This document shows, piece by piece, positions 1 through 8,813 of a DNA stretch of 64,000 nt. Numbering within the stretch: the stretch's first letter is position 1; the number at the start of each line of letters is the position of its first letter. Below the pieces are notes generated by a model, which worked only from the letters and a program-made list of their open reading frames with translations, was not told the DNA's origin and searched no databases. This DNA comes from Rhizobium gallicum bv. gallicum R602sp (GTDB taxonomy: Bacteria; Pseudomonadota; Alphaproteobacteria; Rhizobiales; Rhizobiaceae): the NCBI RefSeq assembly GCF_000816845.1, contig NZ_CP006877.1, positions 3,970,501 through 4,034,500 of the forward strand, read 5' to 3'. The position numbers and the translations under genes are program-made.

Positions 1-2380
1 GGACGCGTTTGACCGAACCTGGCGCCAGATGAAACCAATCGTCGGCTGCGCGGTAATTCGGGACATCAAGGTGTACGGACTGCGCAAAGCGATCGGCCTG
101 CAGCTCAAGGGTCCAGTTCCCGCCATCTTCTACCGCCTTCACAACGATCGCGGCATCGTGAAACGCCTTCGACCGTCCGAGCGGGAAATGGAATGCTTCG
201 GCAAGCAGGCCGCCATCGGCGGAGCGCAGCCGCGCGACGGTTACGTCATGGGAAGGCGGACCGAAACGGAAAGCATAGGTCGTGTCGAAAAATGCACCGA
301 AGAGCTCGGTCGCGGCGAGCTTTTCGGTGGATCTTGGCGCAAGTATCAGTGCTTGGCTGCCGCCGACGGCTCTCTGCTTGCCGTCCCGCAGGCAGACGAT
401 TTCAAGCTCAACCGGCAAGCTTTCGCCGGTTTCGTTGATGACATGCACGTCAAGGCCGTTCGTGCCCTCGTCCGTCAGCAGCACTTGAATCGGGCGGAAG
501 ACGCGGCGCATGGCAAACCAGACCGGTTTCGGCTCGCCGGTGGAATCGACAACACCCCAACCGGGACCAGGCAGAATATCCTGAAGCGTCCAGACAAGTG
601 CACCGTTGCAGTTTGAACCCTTGCGCCGCCATTCGGCGAAGGTTTCCGTCAGAACCTCGCCCGTCACGGCGCGGGACAAATCGAGATAGCGCTCCGGATT
701 TTCCCGGCGCAGCGCCGCTGGGTCGACATGATAAAGTTCCTTCAGGTAGAAGTCGCGAACATCCTCGAAATCCCAGGAGGCGCCACGATCCCGCGGAACG
801 CGAGCTTTCCACAGCGGACTATGGACTGCCGGGACATCCAGATGCCGCTGCAATGTTTTTTGTTGCGGTGCATGGGCAAAGGCGAGGGTTTCTGCAGCAA
901 ACCGGACGTCGGCGCGGCGAGCATCCTCCAGCGGGCGCATATAGGCACCAATGCCGTAATAGTGCGTAACGCCGGTATTTGGCGAGAAAGGCATGGCCCC
1001 ACCGTGAGGGGAGTTCGGCACGTAGGGCACGTCGGGGCGCATACGCTCTGCAATCGCCGGGATGACGTCCTCCGTCAGCGGTCCGCGCCAGAATTCCTGC
1101 GGCAACCCGAGCATTGCCGCCTGTTGATAAATCTCGCTTCCGCCGCAAAGGACCGCGAGCGAAGGAGAAGCCTGCACTCCATGGATAAAACCCTCGACTT
1201 CGGCATGAACGTGGCCCGTGAAGGCCTTATCGCTTCGCGGGTAGTCGAAATTGGCGAACATGAAGTCCTGCCAGACAAGAATGCCGAGCTCGTCGCAAAG
1301 CTCGAAGAACTCTGGCGTCTCATAAGCCATCGTGCCGCCAATGCGGATCATGTTCATACCGGCGAAGGCAGCAAGGCGCAGAAAGGGCTCGTAGTTTGCG
1401 CGCGAACCCGGCAGGCGAACGATATCGGCCGTCGTCCAGACAGCACCGCGGCAGAAGACGGGCTCGCCATTTACCCGAAGGCCGAACCCGTCGCCGTCGA
1501 CGCCACGATCGATTTCAATCCGGCGGAAGCCGGTCCTTCCGAGCGAGTATTCGGCGCCGTCCGAAACGAGCGTCAGTTCGTAAAGATGCGGGAGACCGTG
1601 CGTATGCGGCCACCAAGGCGTGACCTCCGGCAGCTTGAGGATCGCCGAATAATGATTTCCGCCGATCTTCTCAAAGCCTTGCTCCACCTCTCCACAGCGA
1701 AGCAGCATGTCGGGATTTTCGGCATCCGCGTGCAACGAAACGCTGAGGCGGCCAACGCCATTTTCCAGCACAGCCCGGATCGAGACATTATCGATCGACA
1801 TCACACTGCGGCGAACAAGCGTGATCGGCCGCCACGGCCCGACAGCATGAATTTCGGGGCACCAGCCAGGCATGTGCCCAAGCAGCGTCGTACGAAAGTT
1901 CTTGAGCCCCTGCGGCGCGATCATCTGAGGACGCCAGCGGGCGCGGGCTCCGGGCTCGCTCAGACGGGGACCGAGCGCACGAAAACAAAGGACCAGGTCA
2001 TCGCCGCCCAAAAGCGTGACGGGGATTTCATGCGCCGTGAACATGCTCTCGGAAGAGAGGATTTCCTGCCCGTTCAGAAAGACATGGCAGAGCGTCGCAA
2101 GCCCTGCGAAACGAAGGATAACCTCGCCAGGCTCGGCGTCGAAAAGCCGGCAGACGTACCAGGCGTCTTTCGTATTCAGGGGCTCCGGATTCTCGCGATC
2201 GAAGAGACCGGCGCGCTCCAAAGCGTCAGCCACAGTGCCGGGAACAGGTGCTGCTATGAACCTCGAAGACGGCGGGATGTCATGCGGCGTCAAGCAAGCT
2301 CCCGGTTCCGTCAGGACCAGATTCCAGCCTTCGGAAAGCAGGGTCTCTTCCGCACCGACGCTCGCCAACCGCCCCCCCAT
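1..2380 (-). CDS. Glycoside hydrolase family 2 protein, beta-mannosidase-like (3' end outside window)
   Basis: The frame is open from the ATG at 2380 to the window edge, giving about 793 residues without the C-terminal end. The N-terminal sugar-binding part (residues about 10-180) contains GTVADALERAGLF and DAWYVCRLF, typical of GH2 mannosidases. The (beta/alpha)8 part carries LCGGSEIYQQ (Glu416, candidate acid/base) and RFAAETLAFA (Glu497, candidate nucleophile). GH2 enzymes hydrolyse beta-glycosides with retention. No signal peptide is visible, so it probably acts in the cytoplasm. It starts 16 bp after the DUF1839 gene and has a GGGAG-type ribosome site, so it looks like the last gene of the carrier-protein operon. 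Exact sugar specificity is inferred, not seen. Confidence 0.85.
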   Translation of the reverse strand, partial: MGGRLASVGAEETLLSEGWNLVLTEPGACLTPHDIPPSSRFIAAPVPGTVADALERAGLFDRENPEPLNTKDAWYVCRLFDAEPGEVILRFAGLATLCHVFLNGQEILSSESMFTAHEIPVTLLGGDDLVLCFRALGPRLSEPGARARWRPQMIAPQGLKNFRTTLLGHMPGWCPEIHAVGPWRPITLVRRSVMSIDNVSIRAVLENGVGRLSVSLHADAENPDMLLRCGEVEQGFEKIGGNHYSAILKLPEVTPWWPHTHGLPHLYELTLVSDGAEYSLGRTGFRRIEIDRGVDGDGFGLRVNGEPVFCRGAVWTTADIVRLPGSRANYEPFLRLAAFAGMNMIRIGGTMAYETPEFFELCDELGILVWQDFMFANFDYPRSDKAFTGHVHAEVEGFIHGVQASPSLAVLCGGSEIYQQAAMLGLPQEFWRGPLTEDVIPAIAERMRPDVPYVPNSPHGGAMPFSPNTGVTHYYGIGAYMRPLEDARRADVRFAAETLAFAHAPQQKTLQRHLDVPAVHSPLWKARVPRDRGASWDFEDVRDFYLKELYHVDPAALRRENPERYLDLSRAVTGEVLTETFAEWRRKGSNCNGALVWTLQDILPGPGWGVVDSTGEPKPVWFAMRRVFRPIQVLLTDEGTNGLDVHVINETGESLPVELEIVCLRDGKQRAVGGSQALILAPRSTEKLAATELFGAFFDTTYAFRFGPPSHDVTVARLRSADGGLLAEAFHFPLGRSKAFHDAAIVVKAVEDGGNWTLELQADRFAQSVHLDVPNYRAADDWFHLAPGSVKRV

Positions 2381-2396
2381 GCTCAAGCTCCCGGTA

Positions 2397-3359
2397 TCAA
2401 AGCCGATCGGAAATCGAAGTCATCATGGCATCCCATGCATCTGCCGCCGGATCAAGCGCCGCCTGCAATGGCTCGAACTTCTTGCGCGTGACGGCGCGGG
2501 CAAGCTGAAACTGCACCGACTTCGCCACTTCGGAGATGCGCCGGGCATTCTCTTCAGCCTGCGCGAACCTGCCCGCAGAAAGCCACGCGAGGTGATCTGC
2601 GGCCAACTCGAAATTGGCGCCGAACTGGCGCAAGGTGTTGAAGGCATATTTGTGGAAGAAGCCGAAAGGGCGCTCGGCGACAACTTCCACCTGCTGCGGA
2701 AATTGCTTGGAAAAGGCACGGATCGGGTTTTCGGCAGGCCGGCGCGAGAAATGGACCTTGAAAAGACGGTGCGCCACATCGCCGATATAGTTTTCGCCTG
2801 CAAACGCCTCCGGAAGTTTTGCAAATTCCGTATAGGGCAGGAAGGGTGAATCCTCGTCCTTCAGATGCATTTGGAAGAGACCGTCGAAGTCCTCGCCCTC
2901 AAGCTGGAAATAGCCGGCATTGTGAAAATACTCAACGCGCTTGGCAGCAATATCCAGCCGGTTGATGGCGACGGTCGTCTTGCCGTGTTCGGAACGATAG
3001 GCCGTACCGTGGGTATCCGGCATATAGAAGGAGTCCATTTCGATCAGGCAAAGTCGGCCGCGCCTGATCTGTGTTTCGACGTGACGCTCGACGCGGTCAA
3101 AGATCGCGAGTTCGGTGACACGGATGCCGTAAAGCGCCTCGAGGTCTTCGAGCGGTACCTTGAAGAAGGTGAATTGATCGCCCTCGAAATCCTGCGTCAG
3201 CGTAAAGCCGAGCATCGCTTCAGGCGGCAGCCTGAGCGTGTTCAGCACTTCGATCCAGAGGTCGATATAGCAGTTGGTTTCCGGCCACATGCGTTCATTG
3301 GAATGCAGCGCATGCTGGCGGTAGCCATCTGGACGGATGGCCGGGAAAACGCAGGACAT
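2397..3359 (-). CDS. DUF1839 family protein
   Basis: This 320-residue protein begins MSCVFPAIRPDGY and matches what I know of the DUF1839 family, whose members lack an assigned reaction. The ATG at 3359 lies 8 bp after the stop of the amino acid:carrier-protein ligase; an upstream in-frame GTG at 3515 would overlap that gene and is unlikely. The protein is rich in aromatic and acidic residues, has no membrane segment or signal peptide, and contains conserved-looking blocks such as YIDLWIEVLNTL and EDFDGLFQMHLKDEDSPFLPY. Genomic position between the ligase and a glycosidase suggests it uses the aminoacyl-carrier protein, perhaps as the transferase or cyclising enzyme. That role is inference only. 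Confidence 0.8.
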   Translation of the reverse strand: MSCVFPAIRPDGYRQHALHSNERMWPETNCYIDLWIEVLNTLRLPPEAMLGFTLTQDFEGDQFTFFKVPLEDLEALYGIRVTELAIFDRVERHVETQIRRGRLCLIEMDSFYMPDTHGTAYRSEHGKTTVAINRLDIAAKRVEYFHNAGYFQLEGEDFDGLFQMHLKDEDSPFLPYTEFAKLPEAFAGENYIGDVAHRLFKVHFSRRPAENPIRAFSKQFPQQVEVVAERPFGFFHKYAFNTLRQFGANFELAADHLAWLSAGRFAQAEENARRISEVAKSVQFQLARAVTRKKFEPLQAALDPAADAWDAMMTSISDRL

Positions 3360-3367
3360 CGAACCGC

Positions 3368-4276
3368 TCAGCCCCACAGGGTCTTGCGCACATTCGCCGG
3401 CCATTCCGTCACGTCGAGCCCGTGATGATGGAACAGCGCAAGCGCGATGCGCTCGAGACCGAAGCCGACGCATGCAGTGTGCGCGACGCTGCCGTCCTCC
3501 AGGTTCAGGTCCCACTTCTGGCCGAAGGAGTCCTGATGATAGTTAAAGCTCATGCAGGCTGTCGGCTTGGCAGCCGACGTGATCGGGATCAGCAGCTCGA
3601 ACTTCAGGTTCTGATCACGCTGGTTGTTGACCATCATCTTGCCGCCGCGGCCGAAAAATGGATCGTTGGCGACGTCGATGACGACTTCGAGGCCGAGCTG
3701 CTTCATCATCTCGACGCCGCGATCCATCCAGCGCTGACGGAAGTCGGTCACATGGCTTTCGGTGCCCATGCAGACATATTCGCGCATGCGGAAAAGCTGC
3801 TGGCGGGCGGGATCCTTCGACGGTTCATGACGAAAGCAATAGGACTGCAGGTCGAAGAGGCTGCCCTTCGCAGGTAGATTGCCCCGCTTGGCGATTGTCG
3901 GATAGAGCGGATAGCAGGCAGCCGGCGTCAGCACGATATTGGTTGCTTCCTGGCCCTTCGTCCAATCGTCGCCGACTTCCATGCACTGCAGCAGGTTCAT
4001 GTGATCGAGTTCACTGCCGCAGAAGCTGTGGACGGTGCCCGCAAGCTGGGGGAAGCTTTTCATGTAGCCGCTCTTTTCGAAAAGCGCGCGGTTCATGCCC
4101 GGCGGGAAGCGCATGGCTTCTGCGCCATCCGCACCGCCAAACTTGTCGATCAGGCGCTCGAAGGCGGTGATCACGTCTTCGAACTGCCCGCTACGGCCGT
4201 AAAGACCGTCGACGCCAGTATCGATCAGTAGACCGGATTCGAAGAGCCGGTCTAGAAACGAAGTCTGCATATCCAT
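3368..4276 (-). CDS. Amino acid--[acyl-carrier-protein] ligase (class II aaRS-like)
   Basis: The 302-residue protein is a truncated, SerRS-like class II synthetase core without a tRNA-binding domain. Family members activate a small amino acid (glycine or alanine) with ATP and load it on the phosphopantetheine arm of a neighbouring carrier protein. Motif 2 is visible as [20 protein letters not shown] and motif 3 as [12 protein letters not shown]. The zinc ligands known from the Bradyrhizobium enzyme (Cys131, Glu176, Cys279) line up here as Cys121, Glu166 and Cys269 with a constant offset of 10. The ATG at 4276 has GGGG 8 bases upstream; a GTG at 4285 overlapping the ACAD stop is the alternative start. 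The substrate amino acid cannot be read from sequence. Confidence 0.9.
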
Positions 4277-4281
4277 GACTG

Positions 4282-5463
4282 TCACCCCAGTAGGCTAGTG
4301 TCCTGCTTGTGGACGAGAAGCATGCTCGACGTGTTGCCGAGGATGCGGTCATTCGAGATCATGAGCTGTGCGGAATGAGCGTCGCGCAAATGCCGGCCAA
4401 GGCTGAAGGGCGTACCGTTCTTGTAGCCCACGATTCCGCAGATCAGCATGGCGTGGTTGACAATCTCCAGGATCGTTTCCGATGAAGCGATCTTCACGTT
4501 GTTCATGGCCACCGCAAAGCCCATCGAGGAGAGCTTGTCCGGATCGGACTTGGCATCTTCGTAAGCCTTGAGACCCGCCACGACGTTCGACTTCACCATC
4601 TGCAGCAGGGTGGAGACTTCGGCGAGCCGCAGCGCACCGGGGGGCGGAACACCAGGAGACTTGCGGGCTGCGGCACGCACGAAGGCCTGCGCGCGGGAGA
4701 CGGCGTCGACCGCAATGCCATACCAGACGCCGCTCCAGAGCAGATGCGACGAAGCGAGCATCGACTGTGCGGCGATTTCGGCGAAAGGCTTCGGCAGGAT
4801 CTGAACGGCAGGCGCTTGCCCCTTGAAGAGGAAGCCGTCGGAGCATGTGCCGCGCATACCCAGCGTGTTCCAGATATGCGTGCGCTCGAGTGTGTACTGA
4901 TCCTTGAGAAACGCCGTCAGGACCTGATCCGAGGGTGCTGCGTCCGGATGGCTGCGAGAGGTTATGAGGATGGCATCGGCATGCGAGCCGTAGGAGATCA
5001 CGGTCGCGTCCTTTTCGAGACGGCAGCTGTCGCCGCTGACCTCGATGGCGCAGATGCTGTTGCGCAGATTGCCGCCGATCCCGCCTTCGGTCGTCGCCGA
5101 TGCAATCAAGAGCTGCTCGGCGGCGATGCGCCGCATGAAGCCAGCATGCCATTCACTTTCGGTGCCGTGCTCGACCAAGCTTGAAAGCTTGATGTGGTGC
5201 ATGGCGAAGACCATCGCACTTGCGGCGCAAGCCTGGCCAAGAACGGAGCAGAGTTCGGCGACTTCGGTCGTCGATGCCCCCTCGCCACCTAGGTGGCGCG
5301 GCACTTGAATGCCGAGCAGGCGCTCGGCTTTCATCGCATCGACGGCCTCGCATGGAAAGCGGCCTTCGGCGTCGACAGCGTCGGCATATTTCGCGGCGAT
5401 CTCGGCAACGCGCGCCGTTCTGACGGTAAAATTCTGTTCCGTGATCTTGACCGGAAAGTTCAT
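4282..5463 (-). CDS. Acyl-CoA dehydrogenase-like flavoprotein acting with carrier protein
   Basis: The 393-residue protein has the acyl-CoA dehydrogenase fold: an alpha-helical N-terminal part, a middle FAD/substrate strand region with [13 protein letters not shown], and a C-terminal helical part with [13 protein letters not shown]. At the place of the usual catalytic glutamate (EGT in MCAD) the sequence is ILGNTSS, so the canonical base is missing. The ATG at 5463 overlaps the carrier-protein stop as TGATG, a sign of translational coupling; a GTG one codon earlier is possible. Related ACAD-like enzymes oxidise aminoacyl groups held on carrier proteins, for example in prolyl- to pyrrolyl-carrier-protein conversion. 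Context suggests a loaded aminoacyl-carrier protein as substrate; the product is unknown. Confidence 0.85.
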
Positions 5464-5714
5464 CACGCGACCTTCCGGTTGTCCTTGATGATATCGACGG
5501 TCGTTTCGATCGCGGAGATGCTGGCAAAGGACTTGCGATTGAGGAGATTGTCGGGGAATTCGATATCGAAGGCTTCTTCGATGCCAAGCATGAGCTGCAC
5601 GGAAGCAAAGGATGTCAGACCGGCCGCATAGAGATCGGCATCGTCGGCTAGCTGATCGATCGAAACAGGAAGCTTGCCGAATTTGGCGAGCAGTTCACGG
5701 ATAGTCTTGTTCAT
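5463..5714 (-). CDS. Acyl/aminoacyl carrier protein of the ligase cluster
   Basis: This is an 83-residue acidic helical carrier protein. The phosphopantetheine site is Ser35 in AAGLTSFASVQL, where the common DSL motif is replaced by TSF. Helix II/III features follow: LGIEEAFDIEFPDNLLNRKSF, as in stand-alone carrier proteins. The ATG at 5714 has GGAGG 9 bases upstream; the TTG at 5723 sits directly against that ribosome site and is rejected. It is the first gene of the operon and is translationally coupled to the ACAD-like gene. In Agrobacterium and Bradyrhizobium the neighbouring synthetase-like ligase aminoacylates such a protein in place of tRNA. The 255 bp upstream hold no gene and presumably the promoter. 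Confidence 0.9.
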   Translation of the reverse strand: MNKTIRELLAKFGKLPVSIDQLADDADLYAAGLTSFASVQLMLGIEEAFDIEFPDNLLNRKSFASISAIETTVDIIKDNRKVA

Positions 5715-5978: not shown

Positions 5979-7031
5979 TCACTCGGAAGGCGGGTAGGAA
6001 TGTTCTGCGCCATGGTAATCCAACACGGAAAAACAACCGTCCGCCGTCTTCCGGACAGAATTTTCGCCAATCACTGCCTTTCCGTGGCCACCCGGGATAT
6101 CAAGGATATAGGCCGGCTGACAAAGGCCCGAGATGCGGCCGCGCAGCGAAGAAACGATCTTCTGGCCTTCTTCGATCGTCAGCCGGAAATGGCTGGTGCC
6201 GGGCGCCAGATCGGGATGATGCAAGTAGTAAGGCTTGATGCGCGTCTCGACGAATGTCTTCATCAGGTCCGCCAGAACGCCGGCATCGTCGTTGACGCCC
6301 TTCAAGAGCACGGACTGACTGATCATGACGATCCCGGCATCGATGATTCGGCCACAGGCTGCACGGGCTTCGATCGTCATTTCGCGCGGATGGTTGGCAT
6401 GGAGCGCGATATAAGTCGTCTTGCCGCTCGCTTTCAACGCGGCGATCAACGTCGCATCGATCCTCTGCGGATCGACCACGGGCACGCGTGTATGGAACCG
6501 GACAATCTTCACGTGATCGATGGCCGCAAGCTCCCGCATGATCTCCTCCAGCCGCCGCGGCGAAAGGACGAGCGGATCGCCGCCTGTAAGGATCACCTCC
6601 CAGATCTCCGGATGGCCGCGGATATAGTCGAAAGCAGCCCTCATCGCCGCCGGATCGAGCGTACCGAGACCTTGGGGACCGACCATCTCCCGCCTGAAGC
6701 AGAAGCGGCAATAAACCGGACAGACATGCACGGCCTTCAACAGCACGCGATCCGGATAGCGATGCACAATGCCTTCAACCGGGCTGTGCGCATGATCACC
6801 GATAGGGTCGGCGCGCTCTTCAGCTGTTACGACAAGCTCGGCTGCATCCGGCACGAATTGACGCGCGATCGGATCGTCGACGTCGGCTCGATCGATCAAC
6901 TTGGCGACGGTCGGCGTCAGGGCGATCGCATATCGTGCAGCGACCTCTTCCAGTGCCAGCCGGTCGCGATCGGCCAACAGCCTGGCTTTCGACAGGTCAT
7001 CGACGCTTTTGATCGGCCGGACGATATTCAT
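5979..7031 (-). CDS. epmB: EF-P beta-lysylation protein EpmB (lysine 2,3-aminomutase-like)
   Basis: The 350-residue protein is a radical-SAM enzyme of the lysine 2,3-aminomutase family. The cluster-binding cysteines are Cys104, Cys108 and Cys111 in CPVYCRFC, followed by the glycine motif ILTGGDPL. A C-terminal PGGHGKAV block supplies the likely pyridoxal-phosphate lysine. It converts alpha-lysine to beta-lysine for attachment to elongation factor P. The ATG at 7031 overlaps the epmA stop as TGATG, so the two are translationally coupled; an upstream in-frame start at 7058 would lie inside epmA. The neighbours epmA and efp settle the role in EF-P modification rather than lysine catabolism. Confidence 0.92.
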   Translation of the reverse strand: MNIVRPIKSVDDLSKARLLADRDRLALEEVAARYAIALTPTVAKLIDRADVDDPIARQFVPDAAELVVTAEERADPIGDHAHSPVEGIVHRYPDRVLLKAVHVCPVYCRFCFRREMVGPQGLGTLDPAAMRAAFDYIRGHPEIWEVILTGGDPLVLSPRRLEEIMRELAAIDHVKIVRFHTRVPVVDPQRIDATLIAALKASGKTTYIALHANHPREMTIEARAACGRIIDAGIVMISQSVLLKGVNDDAGVLADLMKTFVETRIKPYYLHHPDLAPGTSHFRLTIEEGQKIVSSLRGRISGLCQPAYILDIPGGHGKAVIGENSVRKTADGCFSVLDYHGAEHSYPPSE

Positions 7032-8092
7032 CAGCGATACTCCGCAACCGGCGCCCACAGCACCTGGTCGATGCGCGAGGCTCCTGTCGCCAGCATGACC
7101 AGCCGGTCGAAGCCGAGCGCGATGCCGCTTGCCTCTGGCATGATCGAAAGCGCATCGAGGAAATCCTCGTCGATCGGGTAGCGTTCGCCATAGACGCGCG
7201 CTTTTTCTGCCATCTCGAGCTCAAAGCGGCGGCGTTGTTCTGTCGCATTGGTGAGTTCGCCGAAGCCGTTCGCCAGTTCAACGCCGCAGGCATAGAGCTC
7301 GAAACGCTCCGCAACCCGCGGATCGCGTGGCGAGGGACGGGCGAGCGCCGCTTCGGAAACCGGGTACTCATCCAGAATGGTCACGCAGCCGAAACCGAGG
7401 TGGGGTTCTATCTTTTCAACCAGGACGCGGCTGAAGAGGTCCGCCCAGCCGTCGTCGGCCGAGACGCGCATACCGTTCCGGCGTAGTTCACAAGCCAGAT
7501 ATTCTCGATCCGTCGAACCATCGGCGGCGACCGACGCCAACAGGTCGATGCCGGCATAGCGCTCGAACGCCTCTGCGACGCTGATGCGTTCAGGTCCGGC
7601 GAAGGGGTCGGTTTCGGCGCCCCGATAGGTCAGCTTCGGCGTCTCCACGGTTTCTGCGGCCAGCGCCAGAATCCGCACGCAGTCCATCATCAGCGTTTCA
7701 TAGCTTTCGCCGACGCGATACCATTCCAGCATCGTGAATTCGGGATGATGGAATGGGCCGCGTTCGCGATTGCGATAGACATGCGCGAAGCAGGCGATGC
7801 GCTGCTCACCGGCCGCGAGCAGCTTCTTGCAGGCAAATTCCGGTGAGGTGTGCAGATAGAAGGAAGTCGCCTGCCCGTCCGTCGTCAGCGCCTCGGTTGC
7901 AAAAGCGTGCAGATGTGCCTCGTTGCCGGGCGAAACCTGCAGCGTGGCCGTATCTACCTCGATGAAATCCTCGCGCGCGAAGTAGCCGCGCAGCGCCACC
8001 TGGATCGCGTTCCGCCCAATCAGGAAGGGGCGGCGGTCCGCGTGGACGCTGGGGGTCCACCAAGGAGACGCTTTGGCGCTGGTAAGGTTCAT
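7031..8092 (-). CDS. epmA: EF-P--(R)-beta-lysine ligase EpmA
   Basis: The 353-residue protein is the short LysRS paralogue (PoxA/GenX) that joins beta-lysine to elongation factor P. It has only the class II catalytic core: motif 2 appears as RNRERGPFHHPEFTMLEWYR and motif 3 as ALGFDRLVMLATGA, and there is no N-terminal anticodon-binding domain. The N-terminal strand LIGRNAIQVALRGYFAREDF resembles the E. coli enzyme. It is divergent from efp across a 151-bp gap and coupled to epmB downstream. No epmC-like hydroxylase was seen, as is common outside the enterics. Confidence 0.93.
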   Translation of the reverse strand: MNLTSAKASPWWTPSVHADRRPFLIGRNAIQVALRGYFAREDFIEVDTATLQVSPGNEAHLHAFATEALTTDGQATSFYLHTSPEFACKKLLAAGEQRIACFAHVYRNRERGPFHHPEFTMLEWYRVGESYETLMMDCVRILALAAETVETPKLTYRGAETDPFAGPERISVAEAFERYAGIDLLASVAADGSTDREYLACELRRNGMRVSADDGWADLFSRVLVEKIEPHLGFGCVTILDEYPVSEAALARPSPRDPRVAERFELYACGVELANGFGELTNATEQRRRFELEMAEKARVYGERYPIDEDFLDALSIMPEASGIALGFDRLVMLATGASRIDQVLWAPVAEYR

Positions 8093-8243
8093 TCTGAGCT
8101 TTCATCACCGGGCCCGCCAACGCGAGGGCTGGCGTTTTGCCGGATTTTAGGTTAGTTGCGCCCCAACGAAAAACAATTGGCGTCATCGGGACCATCCAGA
8201 CAATCCCTCTACGACGCCAAAAGCCGAGTGACAAGGAAGTCTT

Positions 8244-8813
8244 ATGGTCAAGGTCATCGCCTCTTCGGTCCGCAAGGGCAACGTTCTCGACGTAGACGGC
8301 AAACTCTACGTCGTTCTCACCGCGCAGAACTTTCACCCCGGCAAGGGTACGCCGGTCACCCAGGTCGACATGCGCCGCATCGTCGACGGCGTAAAGGTTT
8401 CCGAGCGCTGGCGCACGACCGAGCAGGTCGAGCGCGCCTTCGTTGAGGATGTGAACTTCCAGTATCTCTATGAAGACGGCGAAGGTTTCCACTTCATGAA
8501 CCCGGCGACCTACGATCAGGTTGTCGTCGACAACGAAACGATGGGCGACCAGAAGGCCTACCTCCAGGAAGGCATGACCTGCATTCTGTCGATGCATGAA
8601 GGCATTCCGCTGGCACTCGAGCTGCCGCGTCACGTCACGCTCGAGATCACCGAGACGGAACCGGTCGTCAAGGGCCAGACGGCGTCGTCCTCTTATAAGC
8701 CAGCGATGCTTTCGAACGGCGTGCGCACCCTGGTTCCGCCGCATATCAACGCAGGCACGCGCGTCGTTATCGCAACTGAAGACAACTCCTACGTCGAACG
8801 CGCCAAGGATTGA
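8244..8813 (+). CDS. efp: Translation elongation factor P
   Basis: The 189-residue protein is a full-length EF-P with KOW-like domain I and two OB domains. The modified residue is Lys34 in the loop NFHPGKGTP, identical in position to E. coli Lys34, which fits beta-lysylation by the adjacent epmA/epmB. EF-P binds the ribosome between the P and E sites and relieves stalling at proline runs. A GGAAG sequence lies shortly before the ATG. It is transcribed divergently from epmAB and ends at a strong hairpin terminator. Confidence 0.96.

Follow-up and report, generated by a model that had tools for sequence, protein, structure and literature searches.

That relatives of the aminoacyl-tRNA synthetases (aaRSs) load carrier proteins is already in print (PMC9437257; PMC2922099); the purpose of this aminoacylation has been a question since 2010, and a 2022 review still calls its role unknown (PMC9437257). 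The closest described system is that of Agrobacterium, for which Iyer et al. (2010), in a note in proofs, listed an acyl carrier protein (ACP), a redox enzyme, an uncharacterized protein (Atu2574), a glycosidase and liposaccharide genes; they predicted that Atu2574, the DUF1839 protein, makes the amide transfer to a sugar of the cell surface, and guessed at monooxygenation by the redox enzyme (PMC2922099). Here, we describe the corresponding operon in a 64,000-nucleotide stretch of Rhizobium gallicum bv. gallicum R602sp (contig NZ_CP006877.1, positions 3,970,501 to 4,034,500; hereafter, the window). On the minus strand, it encodes, in 5' to 3' order, a carrier protein, a flavoprotein of the acyl-CoA dehydrogenase (ACAD) superfamily, an aaRS-like amino acid:carrier-protein ligase, a DUF1839 protein and a GH2 beta-mannosidase-like protein, the series beginning at 5714 and running out of the window. 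We suggest, at a probability of about one-half, that this operon would load an aminoacyl group onto the carrier protein for transfer to a sugar in the precursor of a polysaccharide, cell-surface or extracellular, the best reading being an exopolysaccharide. Among the observations that lead to this reading are the strict co-linearity of the genes, a ligase and carrier protein of the Agrobacterium type, a likeness of DUF1839 to the acyltransferase BtrH, and a hydrolase that tracks DUF1839 across genomes. The explanation is not new, being essentially the 2010 prediction, which was reached from gene neighbourhoods and which we count in favour of a glycan (PMC2922099); the BtrH likeness, the replacement of a catalytic glutamate in the flavoprotein, the hydrolase link and a split between ligase classes sharpen it.

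The genes are tightly packed. Four-base overlaps join the carrier protein gene (5463..5714; 83 residues) to that of the flavoprotein (4282..5466; 394 residues), and the latter to the ligase gene (3368..4285; 305 residues). Two starts are available for DUF1839 (2397..3359): an ATG at 3359, which leaves an 8-base gap from the ligase and gives 320 residues, the length of many homologs, or a GTG at 3377, which overlaps the ligase by 10 bases; its residue numbers below are counted from 3374 (the 325-residue reading), so that Cys35 below corresponds to Cys30 of the 320-residue form. The GH2 gene (2..2386) starts at 2386, 10 bases past DUF1839, and its 3' end lies 89 bases outside the start of the window, so that 29 of its 824 residues fall beyond it. 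A preliminary description of this DNA, which gave overlaps or gaps of at most 8 bp for the first four genes, is thus confirmed in its coordinates, with all of them on the minus strand and the DUF1839 gap of 8 taken from the ATG. Between 5400 and 6200, a scan found no promoters and two terminator-like sites, against 1.0 expected.

The same arrangement recurs elsewhere. Among 297 genomes of the window genome's order, DUF1839 occurs in 49 and the ligase, above its cutoff, in 64 (70 at an E-value of 0.001); every one of the 49 carries the ligase too, adjoining DUF1839 by coordinates. DUF1839 is present in only 4 of 289 genomes in an even, class-wide sample. The DUF1839 loci that we retrieved number 47 and come from 46 genomes: two belong to another order and 44 are among the 49 above, the window genome contributing two loci. 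The first four genes of the operon, from carrier protein to DUF1839, are co-linear in 47/47, and GH2 comes next in 46 of them (2.6 kb away in L083), not being found in L110. GH2 is part of the core block. Across the 124 loci with all five genes, the four successive junctions have gaps of 8 bases or fewer in 121, 115, 110 and 22 loci, respectively; the tightness of the operon exceeds chance. Additionally, the block is plasmid-borne in Azospirillum, Caballeronia and Mycetohabitans. The neighbourhood survey that the preliminary description had proposed therefore bears out the constant company of DUF1839 and the ligase, and the converse that it had envisaged, four genes that part company in other genomes, is not what the loci show. 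Its interpretation holds in part; it overlooked the core role of GH2, the tandem hydrolase discussed below, and the 2010 proposal of sugar aminoacylation.

The ligase exceeds the curated cutoff of NF005479 (523.4 bits; cutoff 357) and matches the structures 4h2w and 3mey. Its zinc ligands, Cys124, Glu169 and Cys272 (counted from the GTG at 4285), are kept in 62/62 aligned ligases and occupy the same sites in the alignment with 3mey; they are the residues previously given, correctly, as Cys121, Glu166 and Cys269 on a numbering from the ATG at 4276. The earlier suggestion of an active enzyme also survives: it appears to be an intact amino acid:carrier-protein ligase of the Agrobacterium type. 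The carrier protein matches PF00550 (34 bits; cutoff 20.8), NF005480 and the structure 2jq4 ('Atu2571'; E-value 5.6e-37), and its phosphopantetheine attachment residue, Ser35, is present in 58/58 aligned homologs. Alanine is reportedly the amino acid of the Agrobacterium ortholog.

The DUF1839 protein (PF08893, 451.6 bits; cutoff 22.5) is a candidate acyltransferase with a putative Cys35-Thr133-His151 site. According to a 2023 survey, DUF1839 belongs to the papain-like superfamily, has a Cys-(Thr/Ser)-His site and may act in glycan processing (PMC10318531). Our alignment contains the N-terminal cysteine and the histidine in that reported order: Cys35 and His151 are found in 50/50 sequences and Thr133 in 49/50, with serine in the other. 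When a profile of 47 DUF1839 proteins was compared with one of eight BtrH_N-family proteins, the local score was 30.4 (150 column shuffles: mean 15.7, standard deviation (SD) 2.8, maximum 25.6) and the global score was 21.0 over 289 columns (150 shuffles: mean 2.2, SD 2.1, maximum 11.6). The reversed BtrH control gave 11.9 and 12.6 against the DUF1839 profile. In the alignment of the two profiles, the N-terminal cysteine and an 'LP' strand are in register. The eight proteins were drawn from 12 BtrH matches: L253 and L256 were excluded, as their frame proved not to be that of BtrH, and L248 and L249, whose start or frame was wrong, served, after trimming, solely in an earlier comparison. L223 and L224, which were not among the 12, were excluded as too distant. 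The earlier comparison, made with ten BtrH sequences, scored 29.6 locally, against 17.3-19.8 for DUF1839 with four unrelated families and 15.1-24.2 for BtrH with them. On this comparison, DUF1839 resembles BtrH; we claim likeness, not family membership. A profile search of the PDB with DUF1839 yielded five matches, all at chance level. The preliminary description had DUF1839 passing on the loaded amino acid, and a part as the next handler of the acyl group would fit a likeness that scores above 150/150 shuffles.

A protein of ~600 residues, resembling exosortase-A-associated hydrolase 2 followed by hydrolase 1 (TIGR03101 and TIGR03100) but below both cutoffs, lies near the operon in 90 of 135 DUF1839 loci (the 47 fetched, 80 from Rhizobium and eight from plasmids), among which GH2 is present in 134 and a GT4 glycosyltransferase in 36. 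Several Rhizobium strains have it fused behind a Wzx-like domain (1103 residues), and in the window genome a flippase gene (3967063-3968577 of the chromosomal contig) and the hydrolase gene (3968584-3970449) lie just outside the window, convergent with GH2. Within the order of the window genome, the hydrolase was detected in 49/49 DUF1839 genomes and 0/248 others, with at most eight candidates per genome scored, so that cases may have been missed; for a second order, in which all candidates were scored, the counts are 27/29 and 1/47 (the additional genome being G825), and the two DUF1839 genomes that lack it, G826 and G870, are assemblies only 67% and 75% complete, respectively. A genome was counted when an open frame of 570 residues or more matched TIGR03100 with an E-value no higher than 3e-11, thresholds that were chosen after inspection of the tables. 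Without a length limit, the first order gives 48/49 against 1/248 at 2e-12, and 49/49 against 4/248 at 3e-11 (the four frames having 187-329 residues), whereas the second gives 27/29 against 2/47. Kinship among genomes inflates the significance of this association; the contrast is also seen inside two single families (6/6 against 0/7 and 4/4 against 0/7).

We aligned 105 hydrolase sequences, 104 of which cover the second half. There, the nucleophile elbow (GxCxG) holds a cysteine in 104/104, accompanied by a histidine in 104/104 and an aspartate in 102/104; the nucleophile site of the first half is occupied by glycine (80) or arginine (24). A cysteine elbow suits acyl transfer. Shuttles of the CmaE and SyrC type move aminoacyl groups between carrier proteins (PMC8748450). 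The TIGR03100-type 'hydrolase' (3585-5450 in locus L131, and its relatives) may be a misnamed transferase. Where the hydrolase lies far from the operon, its neighbours include Wzx genes, WecG-type transferases (7), Glycos_transf_1 (6), Polysacc_synt (3), Polysacc_synt_3 (3), Wzy_C (3), Wzz (3), GH5 (5) and GH10 (2), as counted in 12 of 18 such loci from 65 open reading frames (ORFs) picked from a crude gene call. We found no link between this hydrolase and the carrier protein operon in print, although only open-licence literature was searched and it may be published elsewhere; the text of Haft (2006) mentions neither a hydrolase, a carrier protein, a ligase, TIGR03100 nor a decarboxylase (PMC1569441).

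Ligase and flavoprotein also occur without DUF1839, in 15 of the 64 genomes above the ligase cutoff. In these loci (L112-L126), the flavoprotein precedes the ligase in 15/15, and a carrier protein gene is detectable in 11/15, divergent every time; the neighbours include an AMP-ligase, an SDR, a TPP enzyme, a class-IV aminotransferase, a Cys/Met PLP enzyme, an HTS and a polysaccharide flippase-like protein, with L125 and L126 having the Cys/Met PLP enzyme and an HTS-like acyltransferase immediately after the ligase. The carrier-binding stretch in L112-L116 is identical to that of wild-type Bll0957 (3mey), whereas that of the 4h2w variant, which has an Agrobacterium-like carrier protein as its partner chain, is matched at 14/14 residues by the ligase of a second copy of the operon in the window genome (L071; see below) and at 11/14 by the window ligase. 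We take 4h2w to be an engineered graft; if so, these matches suggest that the two ligases studied in vitro represent two gene contexts, only one of which includes DUF1839 and GH2. More distant ligases (28-30% identity; L127-L130) adjoin an MBOAT gene, with an ORF of 85-87 residues in three of the four loci, that of L128 matching PP-binding at the cutoff; this is possibly a Dlt-like system with an aaRS-like activator. On a Priestia megaterium plasmid (L213), ligase, carrier protein, ACAD and AcpS are accompanied by ComX, an ATP-grasp protein, an alanine permease, an alanine racemase and a D-Ala-D-Ala ligase, which looks like a cluster for an alanine-derived product with self-protection. On a Tsukamurella plasmid (L214), the ligase and carrier protein are accompanied by glycosyltransferases, a gene of the flippase type and a protein resembling TIGR03100/03101, no ACAD being annotated in 18.9 kb of the locus.

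Assembled into a pathway, the favoured explanation would run as follows. The ligase would adenylate a small amino acid and load it onto the carrier protein, as is in print for the family, and the flavoprotein might modify the tethered group, perhaps by oxygenation. DUF1839, if its presumed papain fold and its resemblance to BtrH are a guide, would accept the acyl group on Cys35 and use it to acylate a cytoplasmic glycoside at an amino or a hydroxyl group. From co-occurrence and neighbouring genes, GH2 would process the glycoside, the tandem hydrolase with its cysteine nucleophile, encoded beside GH2 or elsewhere, would act in the same pathway, and a Wzx-type flippase would then export the unit. 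GH2, DUF1839 and the hydrolase show no N-terminal hydrophobic stretch, which we count in favour of this explanation. The flippase domain or gene, GT4, and the Wzx, Wzy, WecG and Wzz neighbours of the hydrolase point to exopolysaccharide, and the Tsukamurella locus, with its glycosyltransferases and similar hydrolase, is counted for a glycan as well. Together, the BtrH-like transferase, the glycosidase and the cysteine hydrolase with its polysaccharide neighbours narrow the search for a product to a surface glycan.

Several points weigh against this assignment. The glycan and the product are predictions; many DUF1839 loci have no adjoining polysaccharide genes (the hydrolase in 90/135, GT4 in 36/135), and the neighbour counts for distant hydrolases stand without a control set. 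All 50 DUF1839 proteins fall below the cutoff of BtrH_N (PF14399), the single match, L111, having an E-value of 0.0021 and 18.7 bits (cutoff 29.7); as IL11 matches 6/50 in the same scan with a best E-value of 0.0023, values near 0.002 mean little alone, and hhalign gives the DUF1839/BtrH pair a probability of 10-13% (8-13% across runs). Moreover, BtrH itself acts on a small aminoglycoside antibiotic (PMC10318531), and the Priestia cluster, in which the alanine-related genes listed above and an ATP-grasp ligase accompany a related ligase with its carrier protein and flavoprotein, resembles a small-molecule pathway. The product might instead be a diffusible small molecule, either an aminoacyl glycoside or a modified amino acid, with DUF1839 acting on a free acceptor as BtrH does and GH2 on a glycosylated intermediate; the biosynthetic genes (AMP-ligase, TPP enzyme, aminotransferase) that adjoin ligases of the DUF1839-less classes would suit this. 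However, the class with DUF1839 is the one that goes with the tandem hydrolase, among whose neighbours are Wzx, Wzy, WecG and Wzz genes, and we consider a small molecule possible, albeit clearly less probable than a surface glycan. A nonribosomal peptide was rejected, no nonribosomal peptide synthetase gene being seen in the annotated DUF1839 loci, and is retained only as a form of the small-molecule product.

The flavoprotein (PF02771, PF00441) raises a question of chemistry. At the position of the classical ACAD glutamate (Ile369), 60 of 62 aligned flavoproteins have isoleucine and two have valine, and the alternative helix position holds Ser, Ala, Cys or Thr, with no glutamate nearby; these positions presumably correspond to the catalytic sites, having been assigned by our own alignment on the conserved RD motif. 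His89, His240, Trp243, Trp247 and Asn371 are kept in 62/62. In a profile search of solved structures, dehydrogenases rank first (7p98, 98.8 bits), with nitrososynthases and DszC close behind at 71.0 to 64.2 bits (DnmZ 71.0, 3mxl 65.1, DszC 64.3). A true dehydrogenase would, in the manner of the prolyl-carrier-protein dehydrogenases, convert the tethered amino acid to an imine or a dehydroamino acid for release by DUF1839; kinship with those enzymes is discernible (4irn, 51.9 bits; the RedW model, 40.6 bits, cutoff 650), and 7p98, the best solved relative and called an acyl-CoA dehydrogenase, itself aligns a threonine with the glutamate, so that the missing residue does not exclude dehydrogenation. 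The replacement in 62/62 and the proximity of the nitrososynthases and DszC count against the dehydrogenase, which we regard as unlikely; we tentatively lean towards a monooxygenase, as guessed in 2010. The earlier proposal that the flavoprotein oxidises the amino acid is doubtful, the glutamate being replaced, although 7p98 also lacks it. Most papain-fold enzymes are hydrolases, and GH2, which matches PF22666 (43.1 bits; cutoff 27) and solved beta-mannosidases (best E-value 7.3e-51), keeps both expected catalytic glutamates, Glu418 and Glu499, in 46/46 sequences. The block might on these grounds be hydrolytic, with DUF1839 as a thioesterase or amidase and GH2 as a glycosidase, removing aminoacyl groups or degrading glycans; against this, the block always includes a carrier protein and a ligase that uses ATP, GH2 has no visible export signal and the distant hydrolases sit among biosynthetic genes, all of which render such a role highly improbable.

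The window genome holds a second full operon (L071) on a 507-kb replicon, behind nifK, nifN, nifX, fdxB and an ORF annotated as an exopolysaccharide production repressor, and followed by an acdS sequence. Such a nif-linked copy is found on five replicons: this one and the plasmids of two R. gallicum strains (IE4872 and M101), of R. acidisoli FH23 and of Rhizobium sp. C104 (the other loci being L217, L218, L219 and L266); on three other inspected plasmids, the block lies away from nif. The nif-linked copy is not kept everywhere: FH23 and C104 have a broken GH2, C104 also has a split ligase frame, and the acdS of FH23 and M101 is fragmented. It is also a mosaic: at 97.0% identity, the nif-linked ligase of IE4872 is nearer to the window's chromosomal ligase than to the nif-linked ligase of the window genome (86.8%), whereas the ACP, ACAD and GH2 of IE4872 are 96-98% like the nif-linked copy of the window genome. 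Control of the IE4872 copy by NifA and sigma-54 received no support from motif scans: TGT-N10-ACA has one match in 18.9 kb, ~9 kb from the carrier protein gene, and TGGCAC-N5-TTGC with up to two mismatches has 26, against 20.7 expected, one of which (two mismatches) lies 23 bases before that gene. These nif-linked copies single out the nodule as a concrete place in which to look. A fuller form of the polysaccharide explanation, which we offer only tentatively, would have a dedicated glycan-aminoacylation machine, built on a repurposed tRNA synthetase, in which the ligase loads the carrier, a flavin monooxygenase oxygenates the load, and the BtrH-like cysteine transferase and a second cysteine acyltransferase (the tandem 'hydrolase') deliver it to a lipid-linked exopolysaccharide repeat before export; some rhizobia would hold a chromosomal copy and a second one, behind nif, on the symbiotic plasmid, so that the modified sugar would serve the nodule too.

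Just upstream of the window operon (5979-8813), the minus strand carries EpmA and a gene resembling lysine-2,3-aminomutase, and the plus strand an ORF resembling elongation factor P (EF-P). A link to EF-P was rejected: EpmA and the KamA-like gene are upstream in the window and in most of the Rhizobium loci shown, but were undetected beside the operon in the other families sampled, and we regard them as neighbours.

Comparison with known systems places the operon as follows. The linked tandem hydrolase matches the models of both exosortase-A-associated hydrolases (TIGR03100 and TIGR03101), yet fuses the two in one chain and falls below both cutoffs. With Dlt-type D-alanylation, the operon shares a stand-alone enzyme for activating an amino acid on a small carrier protein and, if our reading is correct, a surface polymer as the destination; it differs in that the activator is aaRS-like and not an A-domain enzyme, and none of the five operon genes matches MBOAT. 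DUF1839 has in common with BtrH, the ACP:aminoglycoside acyltransferase of butirosin biosynthesis, a resembling profile, an N-terminal cysteine and a carrier-protein donor, but its Thr/Ser and His are swapped relative to the usual order (PMC10318531), and it lies below the BtrH_N cutoff in 50/50 cases. The Bradyrhizobium ligase Bll0957 shares the fold and zinc ligands of the window ligase; unlike the window, its close relatives have a divergent carrier protein gene and neither DUF1839 nor GH2. The 2010 account of Agrobacterium, as far as it was covered, holds neither the hydrolase link, the BtrH likeness nor the nif-linked copy (PMC2922099). It does describe the same set of genes as the window, namely, an ACP, a redox enzyme, a conserved uncharacterized protein and a glycosidase, and the window carrier protein matches Atu2571 at the E-value of 5.6e-37 given above; there is no basic difference between the two systems, and the window operon is an ortholog of that of Agrobacterium.

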